Of a DNA stretch of 38,828 bases, positions 2,896 to 38,828 are shown in pieces. Position 1 is the first letter of the stretch, and every line of letters begins with the position of its first letter. The notes below the pieces were generated by a model that had not been told where the DNA came from, made no database searches, and saw only the letters and a program-made list of their open reading frames with translations. Source of the stretch: a virus; the IMG/VR virus record IMGVR_UViG_3300022690_000315, positions 1 to 38,828 of that record; one strand, 5' to 3'. The position numbers and the translations under genes were made by a program.

Positions 2896-3897
2896 ATGAA
2901 GATTAGGTTAACACAAATAGACGGTATATTACCCAATATTGCATTAATGAAGTTATCTCACTATTTCAAAAACAATGGTGACGAGGTTTATTTTGAAAAA
3001 AGTGTCAATAAATCCATGTTTGAGCCTGATTATGATCACGTATTTGCATCTGCAATTTTTACTGAGAGTAAAAAGAAAATTGAACTAATGAAAAGCCATT
3101 TTCCAAATACAATATTTGGCGGAACAGGAACAACGAATCAATTAACCGTTGAACAATACATAGAAGTACCGGAATATGAGAATTACGACTATGCTATTTA
3201 TCCTGATTACCCTTTTTCCATTGGGTTTTCTCAGCGTGGATGTAGATTAAAATGTCCATTTTGTGTTGTTCCTAATAAAGAGGGTAAAAACGTATCTATT
3301 AACACCATGGATGAATTGTACAGAGGTGAACCATTTCCTAAGAATATCGTTTTACTGGATAATGATTTCTTTGGTCAATCTGATTGGGAATCGAAATGTA
3401 ATAATATAATTGATGGAAACTACAAGGTATCATTCAGTCAGGGTATCAACATTCGATTATTTAACGAAGAACAAACCGAATATCTAAGCCGGATAAAATG
3501 CTATGACCGAAAATTTAAGCGTAAATACATTTACACGGCATGGGACAACGCAAAGGATGAAAAGCGATTTTTTAAAGGTATCAATTTATTGATAGACAAG
3601 GGCGGTTTTAAGCCATACCAAATAAGTGTTTATTTCCTTTGTAATTATTGGCAAGGTGGATTAACAGAAGATATTTGGTTTAGATATAAACGAATGATGG
3701 AGATTGGATTAAGACCTTATTGTATGATATTTGATAAGTCTCTACTTCCTCCCAAACATGATTTAAAGGCTTTTCAAAATTGGATCAACACTCATAATCA
3801 CATCAAAAAGCCAACTAGAGAAGGATTTGAAGAATATAAGATTTATTACCATAGGAAAAACAAACACGTGGATAAATCACAAATTGAACTATTTTAA
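2896..3897 (+). CDS. Radical SAM enzyme with degenerate B12-binding-like N-terminus
   Basis: 333 aa. The iron-sulfur motif is intact: C116, C120 and C123 in RGCRLKCPFC (CX3CX2C). Residues 1-100 look like a shortened Rossmann/B12-binding-like domain (IALMKLSHYFKNNGDEVYF, FGGTGTTNQ, YAIYPDYPFSIGFSQRG), and 130-300 fit a radical SAM barrel (NIVLLDNDFFG, VSFSQGINIRLF, ISVYFLCNY). The substrate is unknown; nucleic acid or protein modification during infection is a guess. A purine run (2888-2893) lies only 2 nt before the ATG, too close for a normal Shine-Dalgarno. The stop abuts the ATG of the next gene. Confidence 0.8.
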   Translation: MKIRLTQIDGILPNIALMKLSHYFKNNGDEVYFEKSVNKSMFEPDYDHVFASAIFTESKKKIELMKSHFPNTIFGGTGTTNQLTVEQYIEVPEYENYDYAIYPDYPFSIGFSQRGCRLKCPFCVVPNKEGKNVSINTMDELYRGEPFPKNIVLLDNDFFGQSDWESKCNNIIDGNYKVSFSQGINIRLFNEEQTEYLSRIKCYDRKFKRKYIYTAWDNAKDEKRFFKGINLLIDKGGFKPYQISVYFLCNYWQGGLTEDIWFRYKRMMEIGLRPYCMIFDKSLLPPKHDLKAFQNWINTHNHIKKPTREGFEEYKIYYHRKNKHVDKSQIELF

Positions 3898-4699: not shown

Positions 4700-5007
4700 C
4701 CGAGTATATTTTAAAATTTGTAGATTTGTTACATGAGACTACCGAGATATTTCCTACGTCCTTGCGCTCGTTGCTGTGGTGGCAAATAGCTACTTTAGGG
4801 CTGACCTTTGGAATAACCCAATCTAAGCTATTTAACGGCCTTAGACGGCTTGTACCGCTTCTAAAATGCACTCAATGCGTTGGTTTTTGGGCTGGAATAT
4901 TCTTACTATTATTCAACAGTCCTATTTTAAACGCCGGACTAACTGCTTCATTTATTTGCTTTACGACTTACTTATTATTGGCTGAATTAATCAAAAAACA
5001 CGGATAA
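4696..5007 (+). CDS. Membrane protein with C-x2-C-x3-W-x-G motif (DUF1360-like)
   Basis: 103 aa. It has two or three hydrophobic segments (about 28-45, 60-78 and 80-98). The loop motif KCTQCVGFWAG is the hallmark of DUF1360-type small membrane proteins found in phages and spore-formers. It probably sits in the host inner membrane; its role is unknown. It is translationally coupled to the ASCH-like gene (ATGA). Confidence 0.65.
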   Translation: MTEYILKFVDLLHETTEIFPTSLRSLLWWQIATLGLTFGITQSKLFNGLRRLVPLLKCTQCVGFWAGIFLLLFNSPILNAGLTASFICFTTYLLLAELIKKHG

Positions 5008-5008
5008 T

Positions 5009-5212
5009 ATGAACAAACGAAAAAGCAAAATAATTCAATTAAAGCCAATAACTGATTCAAAGAGTTTGCAGTTTATAAAGTCTCATTTACTAAGGATAAT
5101 TTTAGAGCAAGAACAGGCTATTGTTAAGCACAGGAAGACTATTATCCAATATGAAGGGTATGTGTCCAAAATCGACAACGAGGGTATTTACGAGCAACAA
5201 ATGGAAGTTTAA
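5009..5212 (+). CDS. Small basic helical protein, unknown
   Basis: 67 aa, mostly predicted helix (SLQFIKSHLLRIILEQEQAI, VKHRKTIIQYEGYVSKID). It starts 1 bp after the membrane gene stop and its TAA shares a base with the ATG of the HNH gene. No family recognised. Confidence 0.6.
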   Translation: MNKRKSKIIQLKPITDSKSLQFIKSHLLRIILEQEQAIVKHRKTIIQYEGYVSKIDNEGIYEQQMEV

Positions 5213-7202: not shown

Positions 7203-7320
7203 TTAGTTCAGAATTGGTACTTCAAAACGTGACAAGCCCTCCCCCAATGGATACACAGACGGTTATTTGTCACGGGTAGTACCAAACCTTGAACTAAGTA
7301 ATCATTAAGTCTGTGTATCC
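7203..7320 (+). ncRNA. Three-helix stem with 12-bp loop-to-tail pairing (pseudoknot leader or bistable switch)
   Basis: Three stacked 8-bp perfect helices are visible: 7203-7210/7290-7297, 7214-7221/7278-7285 and 7228-7235/7267-7274. The apical loop carries GGATACACAGAC (7249-7260), a perfect 12-bp match to GTCTGTGTATCC (7309-7320) just 3' of the stem. All pairings are Watson-Crick. Only 11 nt (7298-7308) link stem and tail, so the 12-bp helix may form instead of part of the stem, as a switch. It ends 43 nt before the LRR gene ATG at 7364, so it is most simply its 5' leader. Confidence 0.7.
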
Positions 7321-7363: not shown

Positions 7364-8320
7364 ATGAAAAATATTCTACTATTATCATTTTTGATAACAA
7401 CAAATCTATTTAGTCAAAATGTAAATATACCAGACGCTAATTTTAAATTTTATCTGGTTGGAAACAATTTAATAAATATCAACTTAGATGGTGAAATACA
7501 GGTTAGTGAGGCTACGGCATTTCCAGGAGCCATTAATGTTTCTTCTGGTGTTTCCGATTTAACAGGACTAGCAGCATTTACTTCACTTACAAGATTACAA
7601 TGTCTTTCTACTTCTCTTATTAATTTAGACCTCTCTGGTAATTTAGCACTGACAGAGTTATTTATTAATAGTAACTCTTTGGTGAGCTTGAATATTTCTA
7701 ATAATACAGCACTTGAAAAATTAGACTTATTGTTTACTCAATTAGTCAATCTTGACGTATCTAGCAACATTGCGCTTACCTATTTAAGGTTTAAAAGCAA
7801 CTATTCCCTAACCAATATAAATGTTTCCCAAAATACAGGGCTTATAGATTTAAATTGCACAAACAATTCGTTGACAAGTCTGGATGTATCCAACAATACA
7901 GCCCTTACAAATTTAGATTGCTCTGCTAATTCCTTAACCAGCCTTGATTTATCGAATAATAAGGCACTTAAAAGCGTGAAATGCATTAATAATTCGTTAA
8001 CTAGCTTAGACCTTAGAAATGGAAATAATATTTTTATGTCTGCTAATTTCGATGCAACTGGCAACTTTCTGTTTTGCATATCAGTAGACAATAAAGCATG
8101 GGCAGATGCTACTTGGGCATCTAAAAAAGACCCTGGTACAGTTTTCAGCGAAGATTGTTATGTAGGAATCAAAGAGAACCAACTAGATAACATAACTGAA
8201 GTAACTATTTACGATTTATACGGAAGAAAGGTTAATCGTGTAAATAGATTTCAGGTATATTTGGTAAGAACTAAATCAAATGGAAGGTATACAAGCAAGA
8301 AAATAGTCCAAATCAATTAA
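7364..8320 (+). CDS. Secreted leucine-rich-repeat protein with T9SS-type C-terminal sorting tail
   Basis: 318 aa. A signal peptide at 1-18 (MKNILLLSFLITTNLFSQ) is followed by the IPDANFKFYLV opening common to secreted Bacteroidota LRR proteins. About eight degenerate 20-21-residue LRRs follow (LTSLDVSNNTALTNLDCSAN type, about residues 65-220), then CISVDNKAWADATW...FSEDC, and a C-terminal segment (VTIYDLYGRKV...YLVRTKSNGRYTSKKIVQIN) matching the type A sorting domain of type IX secretion. The host would export it to its surface. It is not a structural phage gene and looks captured from a host: a moron candidate for adhesion, immunity or superinfection effects. It is preceded by its own structured leader. 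Confidence 0.85.
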   Translation: MKNILLLSFLITTNLFSQNVNIPDANFKFYLVGNNLININLDGEIQVSEATAFPGAINVSSGVSDLTGLAAFTSLTRLQCLSTSLINLDLSGNLALTELFINSNSLVSLNISNNTALEKLDLLFTQLVNLDVSSNIALTYLRFKSNYSLTNINVSQNTGLIDLNCTNNSLTSLDVSNNTALTNLDCSANSLTSLDLSNNKALKSVKCINNSLTSLDLRNGNNIFMSANFDATGNFLFCISVDNKAWADATWASKKDPGTVFSEDCYVGIKENQLDNITEVTIYDLYGRKVNRVNRFQVYLVRTKSNGRYTSKKIVQIN

Positions 8321-32943: not shown

Positions 32944-33156
32944 CACTGAAGATTCGATCAAAATCTTTCGCATAAGATCAGATTTAGAGGCTTTAACAAG
33001 GACAGATTCTAATGCCTGTTCTATCTGATCTGACTTATTTTCGTAGGTATTTCACCTAATTTCATACTTAAACCAGAATTAATTGCAGAAATACTTGTTT
33101 TATTGAAACCTAAGTACGTAGTTAGCGTTTCAATAAGTAATTAAAGACGAAAATCC
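32944..33156 (+). ncRNA. Structured 5' leader, upstream part (three hairpins)
   Basis: No gene in this stretch. Helices: AAGATT 32949-32954/AATCTT 32962-32967; AGATCAGAT 32975-32983/ATCTGATCT 33023-33031 (perfect 9 bp) enclosing 32999-33005/33016-33022 (7 bp with one G-U), with a continuous 3' strand; and ATTGAAAC 33102-33109/GTTTCAAT 33127-33134 with inner CTAA/TTAG around TACGTA, a near-perfect dyad of 33 bp. The last could also be a DNA operator. Confidence 0.55.
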
Positions 33157-33244
33157 GTGCTGGAAAATTCAATTAAAATATTGGTAGACACATTAAGAAG
33201 GTTCTTTGGAAGCCAGCACTTCCTTCGTCGCCTTCGTGTCTACC
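33157..33244 (+). ncRNA. Pseudoknot leader element, copy 1
   Basis: Helix 1 is GTGCTGG (33157-33163) with CCAGCAC (33213-33219). Helix 2 is GGTAGACAC (33183-33191) with GTGTCTACC (33236-33244). The order 1-2-1-2 makes an H-type pseudoknot. Loops are 19 nt (AAAATTCAATTAAAATATT), 21 nt and 16 nt (contains TCCTTCGTCGC). Helix 2 ends 16 nt before ATG 33261. Copy 2 is at 38227-38328 with the same order, the same first and third loop lengths and the same ATG spacing, but different helix sequences. Confidence 0.8.
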
Positions 33245-33260
33245 TCTTTTATTATATAAG

Positions 33261-33473
33261 ATGAAAAAATTACATAACGAATTAGACAACGTAATTGATA
33301 AAATTGAGCGCAAATACGATGAGCGTCGAAATTATTGGTACGATAAAAGTGAGGCGTGGCAAGAATCAGATAAAGGTTTAGAACATGAAACAACAACAGA
33401 TGATTTAGAGATGATTCTTTGTGAATTGCGTGAAAAACGTGATGAACTTTTAGACTGGATTGAATCTAATTAA
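33261..33473 (+). CDS. Small coiled-coil protein, first gene of operon
   Basis: 70 aa, strongly charged helix pair (NELDNVIDKIERKYDERRNY, DDLEMILCELREKRDELLDW). Unknown family. Lies 16 nt downstream of the pseudoknot element, so it is the direct target of any control by that RNA. Confidence 0.65.
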   Translation: MKKLHNELDNVIDKIERKYDERRNYWYDKSEAWQESDKGLEHETTTDDLEMILCELREKRDELLDWIESN

Positions 33474-34963: not shown

Positions 34964-35149
34964 ATGGACTACCAAGATCACATAAAACACGTCGAAGAAA
35001 GCGAAGAAACCGAAATATTCAGCGGAGTAAATAGAGATGATTTTTTCGCGTTACCGGAGCATATCAAAAGGATGGAATTAAAGCGCGACTGGTTTGTGAA
35101 AATGAGAAACTGGTTTATTAAACGAACAAAAAATTTGATACCTCTATGA
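34964..35149 (+). CDS. Small charged protein, unknown
   Basis: 61 aa; acidic N-terminus (DHIKHVEESEETEIFSG) and basic aromatic C-terminus (KRDWFVKMRNWFIKRTKN). Overlaps the next gene (ATGA). Confidence 0.55.
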   Translation: MDYQDHIKHVEESEETEIFSGVNRDDFFALPEHIKRMELKRDWFVKMRNWFIKRTKNLIPL

Positions 35150-35469
35150 AAAATCCGTATTCAATACCCGGAGTACCAAAAAAGGTCAGCATGATAGACA
35201 GAATAACTATTTATGTTTGTGAACAGCACTGTATAACCGTAAAAGATATTAAGTCTACGTGTCAGAAAAGAGCAATAATCACACCAAGACAAATTTGCAT
35301 GTACGTACTTTACAAGTACACCAGAAGCACTCTTGATTATATCGGGGAATATTACGGGAAAGATCATACTACTGTCCTGTATGGCACAAAAACTATCTCA
35401 GGTTATTTGGAAACGGACAAAAAATTAGGTGAAGAAATAGACAAAATAATTAAGCATTTTAAATTATAA
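35146..35469 (+). CDS. Stand-alone DnaA domain IV-like protein
   Basis: 107 aa. It aligns with the C-terminal DNA-binding domain of DnaA: ITVKDIKSTCQKRAIITPRQ, CMYVLYKYTRSTLDYIGEYY and GKDHTTVLYGTKTI, including the DHTTV motif (D73-V77) that reads DnaA boxes. The AAA+ ATPase domain is missing. It may bind DnaA boxes in the phage or host origin to divert or block host initiation. Which DnaA boxes matter could not be decided by eye. Confidence 0.85.
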   Translation: MKNPYSIPGVPKKVSMIDRITIYVCEQHCITVKDIKSTCQKRAIITPRQICMYVLYKYTRSTLDYIGEYYGKDHTTVLYGTKTISGYLETDKKLGEEIDKIIKHFKL

Positions 35470-38152: not shown

Positions 38153-38226
38153 TTGTTCATAACAATTCGAACGACAACTTGCGAAGGTGACAAGTAAAAT
38201 ATAGTTTAGCCAATAACTTAAAATTC

Positions 38227-38328
38227 AGCTTGACAGAATCAATTAAAAATATTGCCCACAGCAAGCCTGTAAAGGTAAATGAGTCCATAGGGGAAGTCAA
38301 GCTCTCCTTAGTTGCTTATGCTGTGGGC
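38227..38328 (+). ncRNA. Pseudoknot leader element, copy 2
   Basis: Helix 1 is AGCTTGAC (38227-38234) with GTCAAGCT (38296-38303). Helix 2 is GCCCACAGCA (38254-38263) with TGCTGTGGGC (38319-38328). The first loop is 19 nt (AGAATCAATTAAAAATATT), 14 of 19 positions equal to copy 1 without gaps. The second loop is about 32 nt and ends GGGGAA; the third contains TCCTTAGTTGC, matching copy 1. Helix 2 ends exactly 16 nt before ATG 38345. Different helix sequences with kept pairing are compensatory. Confidence 0.8.
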
Positions 38329-38344
38329 TACCTTATTTAAACCC

Positions 38345-38828
38345 ATGAAAAAAACAAAAAAAACAACATATAAGGGATTCAATGTAGATATGAAATGCAG
38401 AGGATTCCAATATAAAGTAGGCGAAGAATATGAAACCAAAGGTGCTGCAAGATGTACTAGTAATGGTTTTCATTCATGCGAAAATCCGCTAGACATATTT
38501 GGTTATTACGATCCTGCAACTTCTGTTTTTGCGGAATGTGAAGCATCTGGAGATATTGATACTGATAATAACGACACAAAGATAGCTTCTTCTAAAATTA
38601 AAATCAAAGCAAGTATGTCGCTTCATTCTATAATAGAGGCGGGTGTTGAGTTTATATTTTCCAAAGCAAAAAAAATCAATAAAAAATCCAATTCAGGTTA
38701 CAGTGGTGCTGCTTCCAATTCAGGTTACAGTGGTGCTGCTTCCAATTCAGGTTACAGTGGTGCTGCTTCCAATTCAGGTTACAGTGGTGCTGCTTCCAAT
38801 TCAGGTTACAGTGGTGCTGCTTCCAATT
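38345..38828 (+). CDS. N-terminal part of DUF7666-like repeat protein (continues at base 3)
   Basis: 161 codons up to the window end. Residues 1-110 form the DUF7666-like domain (TYKGFNVDMKCRGFQYKVGE, GFHSCENPLDIFGYYDP, SVFAECEASGDIDTD, KIKIKASMSLHSIIEAGVEF). From about 115 the 9-residue repeats begin. This is the first gene of the early operon, 16 nt after pseudoknot copy 2. The complete protein is estimated at 244 aa if the 123-bp end overlap is counted once. Confidence 0.85.
   Translation, partial: MKKTKKTTYKGFNVDMKCRGFQYKVGEEYETKGAARCTSNGFHSCENPLDIFGYYDPATSVFAECEASGDIDTDNNDTKIASSKIKIKASMSLHSIIEAGVEFIFSKAKKINKKSNSGYSGAASNSGYSGAASNSGYSGAASNSGYSGAASNSGYSGAASN
38687..38828 (+). repeat. 27-bp tandem repeat, right end
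   Basis: A 19-bp partial unit (38687-38705) is followed by four full units (38706-38813) and a 15-bp partial unit that ends the window. Bases 38706-38828 equal bases 1-123. The contig was evidently opened inside this array. Confidence 0.97.

Follow-up and report, generated by a model that had tools for sequence, protein, structure and literature searches.

Genomic Context of the Leader Elements

The window, that is, the whole stretch of DNA analysed, covers a 38,828-base phage record whose large terminase is 46% identical to those of Riemerella phages. Two early operons each carry a structured element ahead of their first gene (Table 1). In operon 1, the first gene is followed by small ORFs and by genes for a DnaA C-terminal-domain protein, RecT, and an exonuclease-like product. 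The DnaA-related gene (35146-35469) encodes a small protein with only the C-terminal DNA-binding domain. In operon 2, the DUF7666 gene is followed by an 80-aa ORF and then by a weakly recognised replication-initiation O-like ORF (635-1426). The genome is probably circular, since the DUF7666 gene leaves the window on the right within a repeat array with which the left end also begins. This tandem array of NSGYSGAAS units (38682-38828 and 1-140) lies at the assembly cut of the probably circular genome, and similar arrays are present in the relative L371. No element was found directly ahead of the DUF7666 gene in DUF7666 relatives.

Two perfect inverted repeats, TTATTGAAAC/GTTTCAATAA and AGATCAGAT/ATCTGATCT, lie in the non-coding DNA that separates copy 1 from the lysis genes (33100-33136 and 32975-33031) and may represent a terminator, operator, or attachment site. 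A Radical-SAM-family protein is encoded in the phage early region (2896-3897).

Table 1. Leader elements and adjoining genes in the window.
Feature	Position	Strand	Remarks
Third element, same general layout	7203-7320	+	0/1500 shuffles
Third element, arm TTGGTACT	7214-7221	+	Loop AGTACCAA, 7278-7285
Third element, P2a GGATACACAGAC	7249-7260 / 7309-7320	+	
Third element, extra arm pairs TTAGTTCA/TGAACTAA and CGTGACAA/TTGTCACG			
Copy 1, whole pseudoknot element	33157-33244	+	0/1500 shuffles match
Copy 1, P1 5' arm GTGCTGG	33157-33163	+	Partner CCAGCAC, 33213-33219, apical loop
Copy 1, A/U-rich linker L1	33164-33182	+	95% A/T; common to copy 2 and the G042 phage
Copy 1, P2a 5' strand GGTAGACAC	33183-33191	+	Partner GTGTCTACC, 33236-33244
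Copy 1, distal hairpin	33197-33235	+	P2b GAAGG/CCTTC, P2c GGAAG/CTTCC, apical loop CCAGCA
Landing zone, 16 nt, unstructured, A/U-rich	33245-33260	+	Ahead of copy-1 ATG, 33261
Operon 1 first gene, 70 aa, unknown	33261-33473	+	Downstream of copy 1
Possible Bacteroidota-type promoter of copy 2, TTG-N20-TAGTTTAG	38179-38209	+	7/8 to TAnnTTTG; weak, consensus only
Copy 2, whole pseudoknot element	38227-38328	+	Recovered by copy-1-only model, E = 0.0024
Copy 2, P1 5' arm AGCTTGAC, (A)GCTTGAC	38227-38234	+	Partner GTCAAGC(T), 38296-38303
Copy 2, P2a 5' strand GCCCACAGC	38254-38262	+	Partner GCTGTGGGC, 38320-38328
Copy 2, distal hairpin	38279-38319	+	P2b ATGAGT/GCTTAT, P2c AGGGGA/TCTCCT, apical loop AGTCAAGC
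Operon 2 first gene, DUF7666	38345-38828	+	Downstream of copy 2; continues 1-374 if genome circular

Structure of the Two Copies

The sequence-only reading had described both copies as H-type pseudoknots. The interleaved helices stand, as all letters and coordinates check, but a simple H-type fold does not, given that loops 2 and 3 pair. Folding of both copies yields a long hairpin composed of P2a (9 bp), P2b, and P2c, with an apical loop complementary to a 7-8 nt arm located 19 nt upstream of P2a. Because the "second" and "third" loops pair mutually, it is this hairpin's apical loop that supplies the 3' arm of helix 1, and the H-type-only reading was dropped once folding had revealed P2b and P2c. 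The P1 and P2a pairings were confirmed in both copies, as had been claimed, even though the helix letters differ between them. The first loop measures 19 nt in each and is near-identical (14/19 positions are the same without a gap); if one indel is allowed, the shared L1 reads TCAATTAAA(A)ATATT. The motif TCCTTnGTyGC is indeed common to both, but it forms mostly one side of the hairpin rather than a third loop, while the distance of 16 nt from the last helix to the ATG was found in copies 1 and 2 alike. Nested folds that lack P1 are already stable, which means that P1 could represent only one of two states.

Shuffling and Covariation

In a genome this large, chance alone produces single interleaved helices of this length, and an origin of the copies by chance, or as a DNA-level repeat without an RNA role, was considered. 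A loose interleaved-helix search returned about 1.7 overlapping matches per shuffled genome, with no single match being significant. Interleaved helices at 4955-5051 lie within coding sequence, have an ordinary score, and were assigned to chance. With loop lengths and ATG distance fixed, however, the best score among 60 shuffled genomes was 38, compared with 42 and 47 for the copies, and the full arm/hairpin descriptor was matched in none of 1500 shuffles of its own leader for either copy. These tests uphold the claim that the agreement of the copies is very unlikely to be accidental. Combined with the homologues, the syntenic covariation, and the position before ATGs described below, they render an explanation by chance or by a silent DNA repeat scarcely tenable.

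A covariance search had been proposed as a check, and it succeeded in two steps. A hairpin-only model of copy 1 recovered copy 2 at 28.9 bits (E = 0.0024 over the whole window, next match 0.076), and a model of both copies led to another phage, G042, where the arm-loop helix is intact. In the two-copy alignment, 38/38 pair cells are standard (100%), and 12/19 modelled pairs are changed on both sides, which agrees with the proposal of compensatory change. This alignment leans towards the proposed structure, since it was fitted to the hairpin.

The copies themselves are real, though the window holds more than two such structures. A third element (Table 1) ends 43 nt before the ATG at 7364, and all three meet the definition of the leader class given below. 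The gene after the third element (7364-8320) encodes a secreted leucine-rich-repeat-like protein and lies just ahead of the terminase genes.

Relatives in Other Phages

The two-copy model identified G042:16466-16590(-), on a contig whose terminase is related, with E = 0.0037 in a search of 510 kb. Although P1 was not modelled, the apical loop ACTTCCAC of G042 pairs with its arm, GTGGAAG. Another contig, G046, has the layout with an 11-bp P1, 15 nt ahead of an ATG, before a DnaB-containing replication module. The Cellulophaga phages phi19:1, phi10:1, and Nekkels_1 were reached through the replication protein of G042, and each carries the layout in the gap ahead of its replication operon.

A descriptor restricted to leaders was then applied, comprising an arm, an A/U linker, a hairpin with an arm-complementary apical loop, and a start codon within 46 nt. 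It recovered members in Polaribacter P12002L, Flavobacterium FCL-2, Croceibacter P2559S, and Riemerella RAP44, as well as in the contigs G031, G019, and G063; a member in Flavobacterium 11b was recognised once the annotated gene start had been corrected. At the final settings, isolates gave 7 matches in 300 leaders versus 0.17 expected, related viral contigs 3 versus 0.17, random viral contigs 0 versus 0, and bacterial contigs 2 versus 0.5. The mirror-image layout occurred in 3 of 619 leaders, compared with 12 for the forward layout. The seven isolate matches include phi19:1 and Nekkels_1, and the first members had guided the choice of settings. The match in Arctus_1 (L439 4263), also among the seven, is doubtful and was not accepted as a secure member, as it lacks a promoter box and has a long extended stem. 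Five further Bacteroidota phages, taken as a second blind set (P2559Y, phi13:2, phi46:3, phi14:2, and phi17:1), yielded no members with the descriptor. For these reasons the class is considered recurrent but not universal.

Across members, the common layout begins with an arm of 6-13 nt and an A/U-rich linker of 15-35 nt. A long hairpin follows, in which the apical loop complements the arm, and between this hairpin and the start codon there are usually 6-23 A/U-rich nucleotides. The helix letters vary freely while pairing is kept, which implies that shape is what matters. As a structural class, this layout is well supported.

Evidence for the arm-loop helix comes first from four members found without using P1, in which the arm-loop match has p = 0.010, 0.024, 0.019, and 0.011. 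The F. columnare phages FCL-2 and FCV-1 are syntenic at this locus, with the same upstream gene and the same position, and their P1 helices are unrelated but paired (CATCCAC/GTGGATG in one, GTAGAGAG/CTCTCTAC in the other). FCOV-S2 keeps a 7-bp P1, with one mismatch in P2a. Judged by sequence comparison, P1 is real.

Scans that relied on conserved letters were far less productive. Exact patterns with the conserved loops gave no true member among the matches listed (20 viral contigs and at least 120 genome contigs), and a relaxed loop pattern hit 25 contigs, G042 alone being real. Since these scans yield only G042, the loop-sequence family is rare, whereas the layout recurs. Model R1 found no match in 47 viral records; it also missed G042 at first look, so this null result is uninformative. 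With strict filters, model R2 produced two weak matches in 395 Bacteroidota genomes, both judged by eye to lie inside coding sequence, and its match in L145 was judged a terminator-like hairpin. Loose scans for interleaved helices returned near-chance counts and were too noisy.

Position Relative to Promoters and Genes

In seven relatives (G046, phi19:1, P12002L, FCL-2, P2559S, 11b, and RAP44), TAnnTTTG, the consensus -7 promoter box, is found 17-22 nt ahead of the arm; in Nekkels_1 the distance is 41 nt. In the window the promoters are imperfect, and the box is not clear. Transcription starts at a usual distance from the -7 box; if this holds here, the box at 17-22 nt places the arm within about 10 nt of the RNA 5' end. 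The end of the knot is 6-23 nt from the ATG, with the exception of phi19:1, phi10:1, and the third window element (43 nt).

The direct or next gene is a replication-initiation, DnaD-like, or primosomal gene in FCL-2, P12002L, P2559S, G031, G019, G063, G042, G046, FCV-1, and Nekkels_1. The downstream products act as initiators of replication or as helicase loaders. Because the descriptor is blind to gene function, this concordance constitutes independent support. Other types of gene follow copy 1, the third window element, and the member in RAP44.

An arm so near the RNA 5' end, predicted to be only a few nucleotides away, would also be expected if the knot hid that end from decay enzymes and stabilised early mRNA with no specific effect on initiation. 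The dependence on pairing rather than sequence fits such protection, and the open A/U-rich landing zone is compatible with it. A plain 5' hairpin would suffice for this purpose, however, and protection leaves unexplained both the restriction to replication and early operons and the closeness of knot and ATG. Protection as the sole role is thus rated as unlikely, though it remains a serious alternative to control at the level of translation.

Comparison With Known RNA Systems

In agreement with the statement that no named RNA family has this layout, Rfam 15, which includes structured leaders of phages and Bacteroidota, gave no match at the gathering score for the window and ten member contigs, and weak scans of Rfam 15 gave no credible match. 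No description of the leader class was found in the open-access literature. It can be regarded as a new variant among pseudoknotted mRNA leaders that would work most like the T4 gene 32 or IncI repZ knot, without meeting the defining features of either in topology, position, and partner side.

The gene 32 leaders of T4, T2, and RB69 likewise place a pseudoknot upstream of a replication/recombination gene with A+U-rich sequence nearby, and in T4 this serves translational control (PMC3014915). A 2010 review considered the T4 knot as maybe the only viral example for autoregulation of translation (PMC3014915). It is a small H-type structure located 67 nt upstream of the start, with a conserved sequence recognised by gp32 (PMC3014915), and its unstructured A+U stretch lies downstream of the knot, over the ribosome site. 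In the present class, by contrast, the knot is built on an extended hairpin (P2b/P2c) usually 6-23 nt before the ATG, the A/U stretch is inside the knot (L1), and the helix letters are free. The first genes also differ, being unknown, DUF7666, or replication initiators rather than a knot-binding single-strand binding protein.

This precedent for gp32 acting at its own leader pseudoknot (PMC3014915), together with the position ahead of replication and recombination operons, raises the question of whether the element is a specific operator for a phage protein, for instance in autoregulation by replication or recombination proteins. The helix and loop letters of the two copies in one phage share almost nothing, so any protein common to both would have to read shape only, and an operator of this kind appears rather improbable.

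In ColIb-P9 (IncIα), the partner of the loop lies 3' of the hairpin, immediately ahead of the Shine-Dalgarno sequence of repZ, and the pairing is subject to competition from an antisense RNA. The resemblance lies in a pseudoknot formed by a hairpin loop and a single strand within the leader of a gene for a replication initiator (Asano and Mizobuchi, 1998, cited in PMC10724649). Unlike in the IncI, IncB, and IncL/M rep leaders, the partner arm of all members lies 5' of the hairpin, near the RNA 5' end. Those leaders are moreover controlled by antisense RNA and a leader peptide, and no leader ORF was noticed in copies 1 and 2 of the window.

A third comparison concerns HK022 putL and putR, RNAs of about 70 nt downstream of PL and PR (PMC9378689). 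If the nascent leader bound RNA polymerase in the same way, it would promote terminator read-through in the early operons. The window resembles put in having promoter-proximal, cis-acting structured RNAs near the early promoters of one phage, in two copies for two early operons, with structure more conserved than sequence (PMC9378689). The put RNAs, however, share sequence and consist of two stem-loops, with no pseudoknot and no ATG-spacing constraint described (PMC9378689). Both layout and sequence thus differ, an elongation signal would not be expected to keep so nearly fixed a spacing from the start codon, and most relatives have one element ahead of replication genes rather than one per early operon. 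Processive antitermination is unlikely on this evidence, yet it cannot be lightly dismissed, and it ranks with 5'-end protection among the serious alternatives to translational control.

Proposed Role in Translation Initiation

The suggestion of a cis-acting RNA draws support from homologues with intact pairing and from the position after a promoter, near a start codon, and mostly in replication operons. That it acts at translation is plausible but still an inference. The elements are probably a previously undescribed control device for early genes, usually at the start of DNA replication. The favoured reading, with a probability of about 0.5, is that they are pseudoknotted 5' leaders of early phage mRNAs that primarily control translation initiation, a function inferred in the absence of expression, probing, or start-site data.

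Flavobacterium johnsoniae initiates translation without Shine-Dalgarno sequences, and initiation is tuned by low structure from -20 to +20 and by upstream adenines (PMC6847099). Control of initiation fits a leader that is folded to about -16 and leaves an A/U-rich pad free, given this preference for an unpaired -20 to +20 region. It is proposed that the hairpin would fold during transcription of the leader and that its loop would then capture the 5' arm. The resulting knot would tie up the entire 5' UTR up to about -16, with only the A/U-rich ribosome landing zone remaining free. It may thereby govern the frequency of ribosome starts on the first gene, in most cases that of a replication-initiation operon, and may also shield the RNA 5' end from decay. 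A protein or the ribosomes themselves could shift the balance between open and closed states, and whether the effect is on or off is unknown. A further, rather improbable possibility is that the knot acts as a kind of bacterial IRES that brings in or places the 30S subunit, a shape-only device shared by phages of SD-less bacteria for translation of early and replication genes.

The class is relevant to translation in a phylum whose members do without Shine-Dalgarno sequences. It recurs at replication operons in several lineages of cultured Flavobacteriia phages and can be tested in laboratory phage-host pairs. Because the helices keep pairing and not letters, sequence searches miss it.

Variation Among Members

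In RAP44 the knot is absent from the leader of the primosomal gene, and the member of this phage precedes gp42 instead. The leader in Nekkels_1 (L438, NC_062753 ~48400-48589) looks like a double version of the element: enclosed by the same P2a is another hairpin, ACCA[CTTCCAA]TGGT, whose loop complements an additional arm, ATTGGAA. The otherwise unrelated leaders of FCL-2, P2559S, and 11b (L451, L457, and L446) have (C)GAAA in common directly before the 3' strand of P2a.
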